In this document: positions 3,701 to 44,007 of the stretch, piece after piece
Numbering within the stretch: position 1 is the first letter of the stretch
How the letters are laid out: each line of letters starts with the position of its first letter
Assembly (NCBI GenBank): GCA_964036195.1
Contig: OZ038450.1
Coordinates: 10,108,701-10,172,700, forward strand
DNA length: 64,000 bases
Direction: 5' to 3'
Source: Sphaerolaimus hirsutus
Taxonomy: Eukaryota > Nematoda > Chromadorea > Monhysterida > Sphaerolaimidae
Notes under the pieces: generated by a model
What the model was told of the DNA's origin: nothing
Databases searched by the model: none
What the model saw: the letters and a program-made list of their open reading frames with translations, nothing else
Program-made: the position numbers and the translations under genes

Positions 3701-3774
3701 TTGGGCTTATCAACTAGGTATTAGAAGTAGACGCCTCAAATATTTATTCTAAATACGTTACACATAAACTGGTA

Positions 3775-4407
3775 TACTCCAGTGACGTTACACCTTGCAG
3801 CGTGGTTCATATTGAAAGCGTGAAAAAGCCATTTAATGCATGCGATTTATAAAAAAAGTTGAGAAATTCATCGCTGTTATAAAGCCGGAATTAGAGCTCA
3901 GCGTCGATTCGACGTGAAATGACGACGTAAAATGACGTTGTAAAATTAATTACACGAGTGTGGATCATGCTACGGGTCTACAATTTTCTAAGGATAATAT
4001 ATGAATCAATACCTAAATCGTGTCCAATACTGAGTGTTATCAGCCACAGCTAGAGCGAATTGAAAAATTCAATTTTTATCATTTCACGTCATCATTTTAC
4101 GTCAGGGAACTAACTTTATATTTCACGTCAACGGTTAAGGTATTGATTCATATATTATCCTTAGAAAATTGTAGACCCGTAGCATGATCCACACTCGTGT
4201 AATTAATTTTACAACGTCATTTTACGTCGTCATTTCACGTCGAATCGACGCTGAGCTCTAATTCCGGCTTAACGTTCTAAGTAAACGTATTTACAAAAAT
4301 GTATTTTTTCACATTTTCAAAGAAATCGCGTACTTAAATTATGTGGGCACGCTTCCAATGTGAGACATAAATCAGTGCGGGTGCAGGGTGTCATGTCACC
4401 GAAGTAT
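3775..4407. mobile_element. TATACTCC-type MITE carrying a nested insertion
   Basis: The left end TATACTCCAGTGACGTTACACC and the right end, read in reverse complement (TATACTTCGGTGACATGACACC), form imperfect terminal inverted repeats next to TA. Related copies with the same internal words (GCACGCTTCCAACRTGAGACATAAATCAGTGCG) lie near 3107-3360, 24690-24940, 25190-25440 and 59465-59700. The copy is split by the foldback element at 3883-4269. Confidence 0.65.
3883..4269. mobile_element. Foldback element with near-identical long arms, TAA duplication
   Basis: Starts AGCCGGAATTAGAGCTCAGC and ends with its reverse complement. Arms of about 130 bp (3883-4014 and 4136-4269) are almost identical inverted copies separated by about 120 bp. 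TAA flanks both sides (3880-3882 and 4270-4272), matching the 3-bp TWA duplication of PIF/Harbinger-type elements. There is no coding capacity. Near-identity of the arms suggests a young insertion, here nested in an older MITE. Confidence 0.8.
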
Positions 4408-5537: not shown

Positions 5538-8500
5538 CTTCCAGCCATTCAAGAATGAATTCTTCCAGAGGCCGGTTCTGGGGCGACGTGATCAGATAAT
5601 ATGTCCAGTAGAATATGTTGAACAGCACGAACATGGTGGGGAAAGCGATGCTGGACAGCTTGTCGATGCGCAGCGCCAGCTCGTCTTTGAAGGCTTGATC
5701 GCAGTGCTGCGGCGCTTTGGCTGCGCGCGGGGCGGGTGAACATTATGAAGGCAGTGAAAAAACCGTCCAGTATAGAAGGGGCATTGGCAACGAGGAAATT
5801 CCGCAAAAAGTGAAATAAAAAGTGAATGGTGAAGTGGAAAGTGATGTGAAAACGATAAAAACGTAAAGGATGAATTCTGACTTCGAAAGCATTGTTTCTG
5901 ATGACGGTAATGATGATTTGGCGGGAAACGTGCGGATTTTTAGCTTGCGTCGGAACTGTGTAATTGAAAATCAATTCAAATTCTATTTAAAAAACCTCGC
6001 TTCAAAATTTCACTTTGCTTTTCACTACCCTTATTACTTCGCTTTTCACTACGCTTTTCACTTCACACTTCACACTTCACTTCACTTTTTGCGGAATTGA
6101 TCCCAGGGTTGTTTTTTTGTTCAACACGCACTTCAAACAAATGACAAACCAGGCGGCAAAGTGTTGCACATGCACAGCAGACGGCACAGGGAAGGGCAGC
6201 ACACGTTGATGCCTCTCACGGGCGGAGAGGTCATCACCGTGGTGGGCAGCGGCGCGACCGTGTTGTACGGCAGCATCGTTGGCGCGGCGTAGGCCATGCT
6301 TACGGGCGCCTGGTGCGCGTCGGCCATCAGCTGCCCACCCATGTGCGGCACGCTGGTGCACATGACGTATCGTCCGTCCTGAAACGATGGCACGCGGACT
6401 AGGGTTTTATGCAGCCCTACACCTACAGTGCACTTCACGGGGCAGTCCCAGACCCTGTAAGTGTAAAAAATTCTGTAAAATGTCATGTGTCATGTAAAAG
6501 ACCTTGTAAATGTCATGTGTATGTAAAGGACACTGTAAAGTGTCATATGTCATGTAAAAGATCATGTAAAGTGTCATGTGCATCCACATCGTATTGCATT
6601 GTATCCAAATCTTTCTTTTGGACATAGATTTAAGACAAGATTTAAATACGATACAATAAGATTTGGATATGACACTTTACAAGATCTTTTACATGGCACT
6701 TGACATTTTACAGGGTCTTTTACGTGACAAATGTCAATTTACAGGATCTTTTACAGGGTATGGGACTGGCATCAGAACCACACAAATCAATAACCTGGAG
6801 CATCATGTGTACGCTGGCGGGTTGCGAGGGCGGCCACGCGTGCTGCATGCACGAGCACGGAACGCCGTGGTACTGCAGCATGTGCTGGTGCATGGCCGCG
6901 TGCTCGTCCGTGCCGAGCTGCTGCCGCTGCGGCTGTTGGTGTAGCGGCGGCGGCGGCCCTTGCGTTAGAAGGCCGTAGTGAGTCGGCGGCTTGTTGCTGT
7001 AGGCGGGCGGCGTCATGCCCAAGCCGGGCGGCCGGTAGCCGTAGTCATTGGGGCCCGTCCACTGGTGGCTGAGGGTGGCGGTGTGCTGCGCGCTCATGGG
7101 CTGCGTCATGACCACCGAGTTCATGTTCAGCCCGGCGCTGCCCATCGGCGATGAGAAGGCCCCCGGCGTGCCGACCGTCGTCCGCGCCTGCGCGTTTGCA
7201 TAATGCACCCAACCGCGATGAAAACACTTAAATAAGTGCGGTAAAAAGCACCATGGTGCTGGTGTACGGCTGCTGGACAGGGTACGTGCCGTACATGGCC
7301 GCACAAGGGGCCGCATTGGAGGCGGGCGTCTGCGTCTGAGGCGGGCCGACGCTACGACTGCGTTGCGTCGCCGAGCTGTTCACCGTGCCGCATTGCTTGG
7401 ACACGCCGCGACGACGCAGTGTGCTGTTGTCGGTCGACATGTGCTCCCCGATGTTGCCATCCTTCACGTCCTAGAGGTTTGCAGAGTGAAAATGAGATAA
7501 ATACTAAATATTCCTTAAATCATCGAATAAGACACCACGGCGGGTTTTTTTCGCCAGGGTTTTTGAAGGGGGAGAGGGGTGTTATTCAAGGAGTAATTTT
7601 TTCCTCAGAAGTATCAGAAAAACATGGACTTGATTCATTGTATGAATTCATTCCGTGAACTCATGCAATCCAGATATTTTGCAGTTCGACAGGGGGGTTA
7701 TTCAAGGGGGGTCTTTATCGAGAATTTGCAGTAATCGAGATCTATCCAGCGTGCATGCAACGCGTAAAGGGTGGTCTACGGCACGCACCTTGGCATGGGG
7801 ATTGTTGTAGTGCATGTTCGCGTAGACGTAGGGATCGTTCTTGCAGGGCTCGCCCACCGCGTGCGCGCAATTAGCGCCGGCGCCTGGGGGAGTCCCAGAC
7901 CCTGTAAACTTCCCTGTATTTAACAATGTCAAATGTCATGCAAAGTGTCAAAAGTCATGTAAAATGCTCGGTAAAATGAAAAACGTGCTTGCCATTTTAC
8001 CCAGCATTTTACATGACTTTTGACGCTTTGATTGACATTTTACATTTTCCAGGGCGTTTTACAGGGCCTGGGACTGGCACCTGGTTGCTGGTTAGTTTTT
8101 CCGGCCGGCGGCGCAGCTGTAGGAGAGTCTCTGCTCAGGAAACCGATGGTGGCGAGTTCTATGAGCGACGCGAACACGAACATCATGCACGACAGCATCC
8201 ACACGTCGATGGCCTTCACGTAGCTCACCTAAGCAATACATACACATTTCATTGGGTCGAGCTCAAGTGCGAAATAAGGATCAGCCAAAAGGTAACTTTG
8301 TTACTGGCCTTTTATAATCGTCACCTAAAGAACAGGAGTCCAGTAAGGTGCTACCCTCACCCCCAAAATGCTCGAGCTATCACTCTATTCTAGGCTCCGC
8401 TCAACTATTTATCTATCCCGAGGCAAAATTTGTCCCTACTATCCCCCCCCCAAAAAAAAATTAAGCTTTTTCCCCCAGTGGAGCGATTTAAATACTATCA

Positions 8501-11500
8501 ATGTGAAGCCCTGCAGCCGTCCAAATCTACAAAACCCCTCGTAGAGAGTTTCAGAAATTATAACTCCAGCGACATTACACCTTACAATGAAATCTACCAT
8601 ATCAGAGAAATACACATACTATAAATATACTATACTATATATACATTGAATAGGAAAACCAGAGAAGTACAGAGTGGGGTAATTCAGACCTACGCTCTAG
8701 ATTTCGAATAACTTGTCACTGGGTGATCGGAATAACGTGAAATTTTAGGTCAACATTAACAAATAAATAGGAAATGATCCCAGAAAATATAGCTGTGATA
8801 GATCTACTCGTTCTCAAGTTATTCATGCAAACGCGTAATTGTCACTTTACCACCACTCCGTGATAGGTTTCAAACGGCATCCACTTTTCGGGACCCGGAT
8901 CGGGATTGGGATTGTTTTTTCAATTTTCTCTCTTTTTATTCGCAGTGGCATGCCAAAATGCGTGCTCGCGCACCACTAATCCGCATTACCGATAAGGAAA
9001 TATGCAGACGCTTGCGTAATTGGTTGTAAAGCAAGGTGGCAGTAAAGCGAAAAATTGTGTGTTTGCATAAATAACTTGAGAACGAGTTGAGCTATCGCAG
9101 CCATATTTTCAGGGATCCGTTCCTATTTACTTGTTAATGTTGACCTAAAATTTCACGTCGATCCGACCTTCCAGTGACAAGTTATTCGAAATCTAGAGCG
9201 TAGGTCTAAATTGCCCCACCCTGTATGTCGGTCGAGCCACGTGAATTATTTACAATAAATTGAAACGTGACACCGTGAAATTCAAAAATAGGTAAATGGC
9301 AAAAAACTTCACAAACTCTTGGAAGATTTCTGATGATGTTGCCAAATTGGAATGTCATCGCCAGCAGAGAATTCACACCGAGCATAGTGCGCGCGGGAAT
9401 CGACTTGGTACCCAGACAGAACGATATCCATGCTGAACAATTAAAGTCAGTCAGACTGAAAATATTGCAGAGTTTTGTGGGTCTAATCTGGTGGAACTTA
9501 CATATGAAGATTGTAAGAAATGTGGGAAGGTATGCTTGAAGTATGTACCAGCCAAATCGCCTTCGAAAAACATAGTTCTGCTTGAGCTCGTGCCACATGC
9601 CGGCGGGGAAGGCCTGCGCGGCGAAGAAAAGTTGTGAACGAAAAAAAAGAATAGGCGATTCTGTTTACTTCCATATCTTCCAAATTTACTGTGTGCCTGT
9701 AGTCATGTAAACCGGCTAGTCATGTAGAACCGTCATTCATGTATTGTAAAGGTTTGCACAGCATGGGGGATTAGCACAGGGGTTAACATGATTAGTAGAG
9801 TACATAGCACAAGCCGCCGTGTGCAGTCACATACTTTTTGTTCCTTTTTCGGTGATACCACTCAAAAAAATTTCAATTTCATAAATCAGCTGTTATGCAT
9901 TTGAGTTTTCCAATTTCTCTTTAGCTGTATCACCAAAACAGCGACAAAACAATGTGAGTGCCCATGCTAGGTACTCTACCAATTATGTAAACCCGTGCTA
10001 ATCACGCATGCCATGCGTATCCCTCCTAAAATACATGACTGGCGGGTTTAGGTACATGACTAGCGGGTTAACATGACTAGTATGCCTACGTCAGCGCAGC
10101 AACCATCACAGTGGGTCAATACGAATAGGTAAATATGTGTGATAGTTTCTAAAAAACGAACCCCCTCGACTTGTCTGGTGTAAATTTTCACCAGAGCATA
10201 ATCGGCCAGCTCAACCTTTTCCCTGAGAGTGACCACGCCCACAGAGGTCCAGTCCATCTGCACCTCGGCCGTGTTGTAGTTGAAGCTCTCGAAGACGAGT
10301 TCGCACTGGACCATGTCGAAGGGGAACGTGGTCAGGTCCATCGTGCACGGGCCCGTCAGTTTCAGCCGGTAGTTTGTCCATATCGTGCTGCGCGAGTGGG
10401 GCGCTCAGTTGAATCGGATCACACAGGGTGGTTACACTGAGCGATTTGCACTTTTCGTCCCACGGGTTTACATTCACATGCTTACAATGTGATTTATAGG
10501 AAGTGGTCGCCAATGGGGGGTAACCCCCAAACCGCCCAGCTATCTATTTATCGCAGAGACAAAATGTTTGGCTACTATCCTTTGACTCCCCCCCCCCCCC
10601 AATCGGTCAGCTATCTAAATAGCTACCTGGAGCAATTTTAGAGAAAATATACCCAAATTTTTGCTGAACACCGCTGATTTTCATACCTTTTTATGGATTT
10701 TTCCCTCCAAAAGCACTTATTCATGTGTTTAACTGCCTATATTAGCGATTTTTCTCCCTTATACTTCCTTCTACACCTTGAATATTGATTGATAACATTT
10801 TATTGATAACACACCTTGATATATATTGAACCCCCGCGACCCCCCCCCCATTTTTTCAGCTATCTATCCCTCCGGAGGAGCGATTTGCTAACTATCCAAC
10901 CCCTAGAGAGTCAAAATCAACATCACTCACCCGTTTGGGTATATCATAAGGAAGATGTTTGGAAAAGGCGATTCGTGTATCTGAGCAAACTTAGAATTGA
11001 CGAAACACGAGTTTGGTGTCCAGAGCCTTTTGAGCACGTCATTGTTAAGCGAGAGGTTTTTCTTGCACGGATTCATGTGCTCATAAGACAGGGCCGGGTC
11101 GAGCCACAGCTCGCTGATGTAAATATCCAATTTGAAGTCGGATGTAATGTCGGATATCGTTGTCACCTCTTGCACCCACACTTCTACCGCGACCTGTGGG
11201 GTTTTATTCGAGTAAAGAAAATATTTCACGAATAAAATCGGAAGTCCAGAAGGATAGGTAGTTCAAAGACAGACCTTGACCCGGCCGCCGGGCACCCTGT
11301 GTCTATTGTAGCCCTGCATGATGTCCTCCAGAATGGACGTGTCATTGGCGCATCCAGCGCTGCCGCCGTCATCGGTGTCTCTTTCGGACCGCTGCAAGGG
11401 GTCGTCGGCGCCGCTCGCAGACGCCGGCGGCAGGTCGCTGCGAGTGCACGTTCATGTTAAGTTTGGTGCCCATGCCCAGTATGGACGTAACTGAGCGACA

Positions 11501-25445: not shown

Positions 25446-26250
25446 CCGTATTTACTCGATATACCTCCAGGGCCCGGGGTGGGGGGTATTGTTTCGGAGT
25501 GCAAATTTTTGGCAAGTAAATCGAGGGAGAGGGATTTCATGGGGGGGAGCTATTTTTTCATAAGCTCGCACAGACCTGGGGCCAGATTTAATACTCCCTA
25601 CAGATTTGTAGGGTAGGGCGTACGCCCGACAGATTTTTTAAAGTTTAGCCGCATCGACGCACATGCACAGAGAGCAAGGCGGTTCGTAAAATATACGAAA
25701 CCATCCTTTAAGGTTGCCGATATTGCAATATGACGTATATCACTTCGATTTTGGCTCGGAAATCACGATTTCGTCATTTCTTGACCGTCTGCCAATTCGT
25801 TTTTTATTTTATTTTGTCGGGCGGGTTACTCGCATAGGTCACGCTTTTGTGTAGTCAGGTGGTCACTTTTTTAGTGTTCACTGTCTGCAATCGAAACCAT
25901 GAGGGCAGCGACAAGAAAGAAATGCATGCACGAGCGTACAAAAGCGCGACTTATGCGAGTAACCCGCCCGACAAAATAAAATAAAAAACGAATTGGCAGA
26001 CGGTCAAGAAATGACGAAATCGTGATTTCCGAGACAAAATCGAAGCGATATACGTTATATTGCAATATCGGCGACCTTAAGGGATAGTTTCGTGTATTTT
26101 ACAAACCGCATTGCTCTCGGTGCATGTGCGTCGATGCGGCTGAACTTTAAAAAATCTATCGGGCGTACGCCCTACCCTACAAATCTGTAGGGAGTATTAA
26201 ATCTGGCCCCTGGGGTTTTTTAGAGTGGGGTGTATTTGTAGGAAATACGG
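25446..26250. mobile_element. CCGTATTTACTCGA-family MITE carrying a nested foldback
   Basis: The left end CCGTATTTACTCGATATACC and right end GGAAATACGG bound the copy, and the interior G-runs match the family. Most of its length is the inserted foldback at about 25573-26215. Confidence 0.6.
25573..26215. mobile_element. Foldback element with arms of about 270 bp
   Basis: GGGGCCAGATTTAATACTCC at the left and its reverse complement at the right begin inverted arms of about 270 bp with only scattered differences, separated by a centre of about 80 bp. CCTGG stands at both edges and may be a 5-bp duplication, although the GC-rich junction makes the exact ends ambiguous. No protein is encoded. Confidence 0.75.
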
Positions 26251-43434: not shown

Positions 43435-43691
43435 AGGGTGTCAACAAAAACTTTTTGGCGGAAAACGGAAACGGAAACAGAAAAAAATTTGCACTTGCCG
43501 GAAAACGGAAACGGAAAAAAATCTCCACCTGCCGGAAAACGGAAAAATGAAAGCCCGGAAAACGGAAACGGAAAAATTTGCTGAAATTATGCCGTAAACG
43601 GAAAAAATTTGCTGAAATTTTGCCGGAAACGGAAAAAATTGCAGAAATTTATCCAGAAATCAAAAAATTTGCAGAAATCTTGCTAGAAATA

Positions 43692-44007
43692 AACACCTTC
43701 CCGGTCACGTCCGGCACCCTATTTTTGATTGTACTTGTGACACCCTATCTCCAGTTCTAGGGCGGGCCAGAAGCTGAAACTTGGGGGAGATATTGGCGCA
43801 ACCCCCCTCTACCTCGCATGAATTAGGGGGGTCGCGGCGACCCACCCTGAGAGGGGTTGCCGCGACCCCCCTAATTCATGCGAGGTAGAGGGGGGTTGCG
43901 CCAATATCTCCCCCAAGTTTCAGCCTCTGCGGCACCCTAGAACTGGGTATAGGATGTAAGAAGTAAAATCAAAAAATGGGTGCCGGACGTGACCGGGAAG
44001 GTGTTTA
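43692..44007. mobile_element. Foldback element with long inverted arms inside the hAT-like element
   Basis: AAACACCTTCCCGGTCACGT at the left faces its reverse complement at the right (ending GGGAAGGTGTTT). The arms include AACCCCCCTCTACCTCGCAT and its inverse, leaving a centre of only about 20 bp. AGAAA-type bases occur at both edges but a duplication is not certain. In RNA it would form a very stable hairpin. Confidence 0.75.

Follow-up and report, generated by a model that had tools for sequence, protein, structure and literature searches.

A palindromic CWG-targeting MITE as a predicted introner in the nematode Sphaerolaimus hirsutus, with a candidate GT-TG intron class

We describe a palindromic element of the Sphaerolaimus hirsutus genome that is, with high probability, a non-autonomous NuwaI-type (PIF/Harbinger) MITE behaving as an introner, with GT-AG introns and candidate GT-TG introns as its predicted outputs from a CWG target. 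One copy, in the 64,000-nucleotide stretch of DNA analysed here (the window; contig OZ038450.1, positions 10,108,701 to 10,172,700), is a predicted intron whose removal restores the reading frame of a channel gene. Many similar element-introns are predicted across unrelated genes of this one genome, and the likeness between them reaches near both splice borders. The target triplet is the source of the acceptor, CAG giving GT-AG and CTG giving GT-TG, and a large share of copies would seem to need a non-canonical 3′ splice end. The best reading of these sequences is a new introner family with a large, predicted GT-TG class.

The window element and its host gene

The window gene encodes a Cys-loop channel on the minus strand, with exons at about 5.5-11.8 kb. 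The features that concern the element are as follows.

8081..8228, minus strand: upstream exon, M3 segment of the channel (Pfam Neur_chan_memb)
8081..8083, minus strand: upstream copy, CAG, of the 3-bp target duplication; exonic
7884..8080, minus strand: predicted GT-AG intron of 197 nt, the element plus one CAG duplication; frame kept on removal, phase 1
7887..8080, minus strand: palindromic MITE copy, 194 bp (family consensus 192 bp)
8079..8080, minus strand: donor GT, element bases 1-2 (GT in 40/40 copies examined)
8068..8080, minus strand: 5′ terminal inverted repeat, GTGCCAGTCCCAG
7887..7898, minus strand: 3′ terminal inverted repeat, CTGGGACTCCCC (consensus CTGGGACTGCCCC, minus one G in the window copy)
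7884..7886, minus strand: downstream copy, CAG, of the target duplication; source of the acceptor AG
7789..7883, minus strand: downstream exon, M3-M4 loop (judged by eye from an open frame and splice signals)
6439..6772, minus strand: second family copy (L046), 334 bp, CTG/GTG flanks, within a larger, ordinary intron of the channel gene

With ^ marking the splice junction, the gene strand reads CCAG^GTGCC at the donor (8080/8079) and CCCCCAG^G at the acceptor (7884/7883). The intron splits a codon after its first base, and the joined translation (...TNQQPGAGAN...) continues in an unbroken frame; the frame of the upstream exon, when read into the element, meets a stop codon inside it. An earlier note on this DNA had pointed to the palindrome, the GT-AG dinucleotides, phase 1 and the restored channel frame, all of which are read directly in the window. 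The note had also taken CCTGG, present at both 7883-7887 and 8080-8084 (CCAGG on the gene strand), for a target duplication of 5 bp. This length is wrong and we dropped it: the compared copies share only a 3-bp CWG flank, so the window element is 7887-8080 and its duplication is CAG, with letters 4 and 5 of the repeat contributed by the element end and by the target sequence.

The foldback is made of inverted-repeat blocks at 7925-7978/7993-8046 (91% complementary) and 7891-7916/8050-8075 (85%). Folded as RNA, the intron reaches -109.7 kcal/mol (z -16.65), a value equalled by none of 200 shuffles. The fold leaves the first 5 nt and the last 7 nt unpaired, which would keep both splice sites free at the base of the long stem.

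Pfam Neur_chan_memb matched the joined exons at 7.9e-08 and the upstream exon alone at 3.7e-08, and the match stops short of the exon junction; judged from the proteins of relatives, the insertion site is in the variable M3-M4 loop. Among the best 120 of 549 channel relatives, most have at least 50% identity over 50-86% of the query (the top one 69% over 71%), and those of the 120 with a species in their printed name were all recognised as nematode, many of them LGC-50. The acceptors of the other exons of this gene, read by eye, end in AG. In the second family copy the first base of the element is changed from G to A. The window also holds other foldbacks, one of them (8668-8840 and 9053-9225, 173-nt arms 88% complementary) in the intron just upstream of the window element, and further long inverted repeats at 25575-26213, 3882-4270 and 43690-44007 (arms of 276, 140 and 154 nt) belong to other foldback families.

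A large family with unequal ends

We searched the genome (348,482,957 bases in 762 contigs) with the window copy, which gave 2,507 first-look candidates, and scored 40 of them. For the scored copies other than the window one, top matches were 82-86% identical and mostly near full length; two short extra matches were also among the scored results. A 26-bp 5′-end pattern with at most 2 mismatches was found at 3,751 + 3,616 = 7,367 genomic sites (0 + 0 for the reversed control), and since the GGGGC end can match this pattern too, copies are fewer than sites. A genome-wide family was marked as inference in the earlier note; it is now supported by the end search and by the sense copies in conserved exons described below.

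A consensus built from 93 copies (175-205 bp each) measures 192 bp and is nearly its own reverse complement, the palindrome being broken only at end positions 2 and 4 and at one inner pair. It begins GTGCCAGTCCCAG and finishes CTGGGACTGCCCC, and this other end read inwards is GGGGCAGTCCCAG. Conservation of the ends was read from 40 unique copies, picked by similarity to the window copy (45 loci fetched, 5 repeats dropped). At the donor end G1, T2 and G3 are present in 40/40, position 4 is conserved in 36/40 and position 7 in 25/40. Five further positions are invariant in 40/40, namely 8 and 13 at the 5′ end and three at the 3′ end, so the constancy of GT may partly reflect transposition.

End pairs were asymmetric in 125 copies, GTGCC-type in 10 and GGGGC-type in 5, and most copies of the last two kinds are poor matches. 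Four good copies (L067, L068, L071 and L072) have GTGCC-type sequence at both ends and surroundings with low coding scores. Symmetric-ended copies were considered as a control and dropped, these good ones being too few to count. Length variants with intact or nearly intact ends form subfamilies (L049, 142 bp; L054, 165 bp; L063, 152 bp; L064, 142 bp; L066, 245 bp), and all five have long joined open frames. As regards a viral carrier, a 21-bp piece of the element end had 0 matches in viral contigs, a collection from which near records may be missing.

Copies in conserved exons

Host genes were named by Pfam or PDB matches of the flanks, translated after removal of the element and one duplication. 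The homology test set of 112 copies yielded 78 sense and 70 antisense flank pieces, the remainder having missed the threshold for score or for length. In the sense pieces Pfam gave 14 member-family matches, to 12 families, against 0 in the antisense pieces; two of the 14 come from tandem PRPF8-like copies, and a single member may match two families. Thus, the exon copies that can be identified lie GT-first relative to the gene. Copies with CTG on both sides were placed in the following genes.

EFTUD2 (L078), CTG/CTG: 84 residues aligned, no gap over the junction
Aspartyl aminopeptidase (L081), CTG/CTG: 79 residues aligned, no gap over the junction
Laminin beta-1 (L090), CTG/CTG: 88 residues aligned, no gap over the junction
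BCKDHA (L073), CTG/CTG: junction within a gap-free stretch
Oscp1 (L053), CTG/CTG: profile match spans the junction
SLC23-type permease (L074), CTG/CTG: profile match spans the junction
ESS2 (L017), CTG/CTG: matches Es2 and a solved ESS-2 protein; gaps further upstream, none at the junction
Presumed SLC25A3-like carrier (L031), CTG/CTG: Pfam carrier match over residues 48-84 of the joined piece only

The last of these, presumed to be SLC25A3-like, had no PDB match. Among CAG copies, junction-spanning Pfam matches were obtained for an Ion_trans channel, a TSP1 repeat, an ABC transporter and Oscp1. The CTG/CTG joined pieces L036, L065 and L066 (3 of 10 joined pieces) and the joined pieces L023 and L018 (2 of 10 in another set) had no Pfam match, and a DnaJ match (L015) stops short of the junction. 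These sense copies in the same genome, which break conserved exons with the geometry of element plus one duplication, support the family as genome-wide. The proposal of the earlier note that a palindromic DNA transposon is itself a complete intron is likewise supported.

Two arrangements were seen in passing. The Oscp1 gene carries two element copies, one CAG/CAG and one CTG/CTG. On C1 near 22.17-22.19 Mb, the neighbouring stretches L106 and L107 each hold the same PRPF8-like (PROCN) exon with a CAG/CAG copy; their downstream flanks are identical, their upstream flanks differ, and a third CAG/CAG site lies in between, which looks like tandem duplication with deletion.

Coding context was also scored by codon usage, with a score that is partly circular in having been trained on 8 Pfam-matched loci of the same copy set, which takes in 40 copies fetched for exact ends. 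By this score, 28/43 CAG/CAG copies are in coding surroundings (18 sense, 10 antisense; 15 neither), as are 20/40 CTG/CTG copies (18 sense, 2 antisense; 20 neither), against a background of 27/228 other CWG sites in the flanking sequence of these loci. Several sense exons proved by Pfam score nearly equally on the opposite strand, these exons being GC-rich. The score is therefore ambiguous in such exons, and we rejected coding scores alone for strand assignment and judged strand by Pfam on the sense and antisense flanks. Among the 68 copies whose sense score passed the cut, the element contains a stop in 67 when read in the best sense frame.

Target triplets and the 3′ boundary

Genome-wide, three classes of exact full copies (upstream/downstream triplet) comprise 158 copies: CAG/CAG 82, CTG/CTG 53 and CTG/CAG 23. 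The earlier note had overlooked the CTG copies: 76/158 have CTG upstream and 53/158 have it on both sides. The 40 similarity-picked copies comprise CAG/CAG 16, CTG/CTG 7, CTG/CAG 5, CTG/CCA 2 and ten singletons. In this sample AG stands at the 3′ boundary in 20/20 copies with upstream CAG, and in 10/18 with upstream CTG, where it arises by substitution or a shifted border (8/18 are without it; Fisher p 9e-05). A looser copy set contains one CAG/CTG copy versus six CTG/CAG copies, and a sample with perfect 5′ ends (28 paired copies) contains nine CTG/CTG, six CAG/CAG and no CTG/CAG copies. Some copies are flanked by CGG, CAT or other triplets rather than CWG.

We considered CTG copies as a younger class, an idea unsupported by divergence from the consensus. 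Median divergence is 8.5% for CTG/CTG (n=20) versus 8.1% for CAG/CAG (n=20) among exact copies, and 7.4% (n=9) versus 6.4% (n=16) in the similarity sample. Divergence of the CTG/CTG class is not the lower of the two, and so this class is not simply young.

In these CTG/CTG genes, the sole register that offers a GT donor has TG as its 3′ end. We lean, with some reserve, towards the view that one transposon mints both GT-AG and GT-TG introns depending on the middle base of the target triplet, that the spliceosome takes TG regularly, even in genes that encode components of the spliceosome itself (EFTUD2 and ESS2), and that CTG copies later mutate to AG.

A different account, possible though doubtful in our estimation, accepts the CAG copies as introns and has the CTG copies unspliced, harmful or polymorphic, or spliced at other AGs with small deletions, a GT-TG class being absent. 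The presence of AG in 10/18 CTG copies fits this account, since it implies that TG is at least inferior. The position of the first downstream AG bears on it in both directions. In 4/8 CTG/CTG genes this AG lies 12, 15, 18 or 33 nt on, in frame with the loss of residues, so that an in-frame deletion could replace TG splicing there; in 4/8 it lies 8, 10, 16 or 17 nt on and the frame is lost, and ESS2, the SLC25A3-like gene and BCKDHA have no in-frame AG among those listed (at most 4 per gene, within 60 nt). The class is also large, with 53 exact CTG/CTG copies against 82 CAG/CAG, its median divergence is not below that of CAG/CAG, and its copies lie in sense orientation in genes such as EFTUD2 and ESS2, which are essential genes.

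Removal might instead occur in DNA, with a domesticated transposase cutting exonic copies out of the soma rather than out of RNA. PIF/Harbinger elements can excise precisely, ciliates remove IESs from somatic DNA, and such a process would account both for CAG and CTG copies in exons and for exact removal with one duplication. It should be orientation-blind, yet the exon copies that Pfam could identify lie in sense orientation (14 matches versus 0), and it leaves unexplained that AG was gained in 10/18 CTG copies and lost in 0/20 CAG copies; we consider it very improbable. Least credible of all is that the window element is an ordinary MITE within an older intron and matches the splice sites by chance, for although the longer family copy at 6439-6772 does sit in an ordinary intron of the same gene, the window intron and element coincide at both borders and the identical geometry recurs in unrelated conserved exons.

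A proposed route from insertion to intron

In the introner reading that we prefer, the MITE would insert at CWG and duplicate the triplet, with a NuwaI transposase as its putative mover. Both ends were once probably GGGGCAGTCCC, one of them having become GTGCCAGTCCC; the simplest reading of this change, and of the order in which the ends diverged, is that mutation of a GGG-type end to GTG created the splice donor. The GTGCCAGTCCC end would set GT right after the duplicated triplet, making one orientation spliceable. The intron would then consist of the element plus one duplication, CAG^GT...CAG^ for a CAG target and CTG^GT...CTG^ for a CTG target. We infer removal by the spliceosome, which would restore the target exactly, so that insertions into coding exons may be tolerated and copies may persist.

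A CAG target would yield a canonical intron immediately. The CTG class would use TG as its 3′ splice site, or be poorly spliced. Such introns may be tolerated enough to persist, and in many of them the downstream triplet would since have mutated to one containing AG.

Relation to known systems

Introners derived from non-autonomous DNA elements, often with terminal inverted repeats and target duplications and present in many copies, are described in PMC9860276. The introner in Fig. 2C of that work carries its 5′ splice site and takes its 3′ site from the duplication, as does the family described here. This family differs from those introners in drawing its acceptor from a CWG triplet, so that one element would give two intron classes. 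According to PMC9860276, among animals and land plants introners occur in only two groups, both of them animals, with copepods named; neither 'nematod' nor 'Harbinger' occurs in its main text.

The 3-bp CWG duplication is common to our family and to the NuwaI group of PHIS (PIF/Harbinger) in animals, whose terminal inverted repeats usually begin GGG (PMC4482050). The section on NuwaI hosts names 12 bony fish, a beetle, a crustacean, a mollusc and an anthozoan, and a nematode is absent from that section. In our family the 3′ end (GGGGC) is of the GGG type and the 5′ end (GTGCC) is not.

In human genes, TG has been described as an alternative 3′ splice site of U2-type introns, verified in 36 genes (PMC2374985). 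In those genes TG is an alternative, whereas the predicted class described here would have no other exact site. As far as our searches show, the nearest parallels for non-AG ends defined by triplets or repeats are those in Fritillaria and Amoebophrya. The tunicate Fritillaria borealis has AG-AC/AG-AT introns and a divergent U2AF (PMC13326754). The likeness lies in a YAY triplet, often before the 5′ site and nearly always at the intron end, and in a non-AG 3′ end; our family differs in combining a GT donor with CAG or CTG. Introner elements of Amoebophrya (PMC7789003) resemble ours in their hairpin inverted repeats, direct repeats of 3-5 nt across the borders with the exons, and non-canonical ends. 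Their splice sites vary widely and a family-specific inverted repeat was not detected in that report, whereas the present family has fixed ends and its identifiable exon copies are sense.

A full-text literature search returned no report of a nematode introner among the matches listed, judged by title and the start of the abstract, and PMC9169325, on nematode introns, discusses the lack of success in tracing gained introns to their source sequences. As far as these searches show, the nematode host, the NuwaI/Harbinger signature and the predicted twin GT-AG/GT-TG output are new.

The origin of new introns is an old question, for which few sources have come from animals, nematodes included. With 158 exact copies in three acceptor states and a clear target, this family makes the birth of introns, the tolerance of bad 3′ sites and their repair directly testable. 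If the proposed route is true, the whole path from an insertion to a canonical intron would be legible in one genome.
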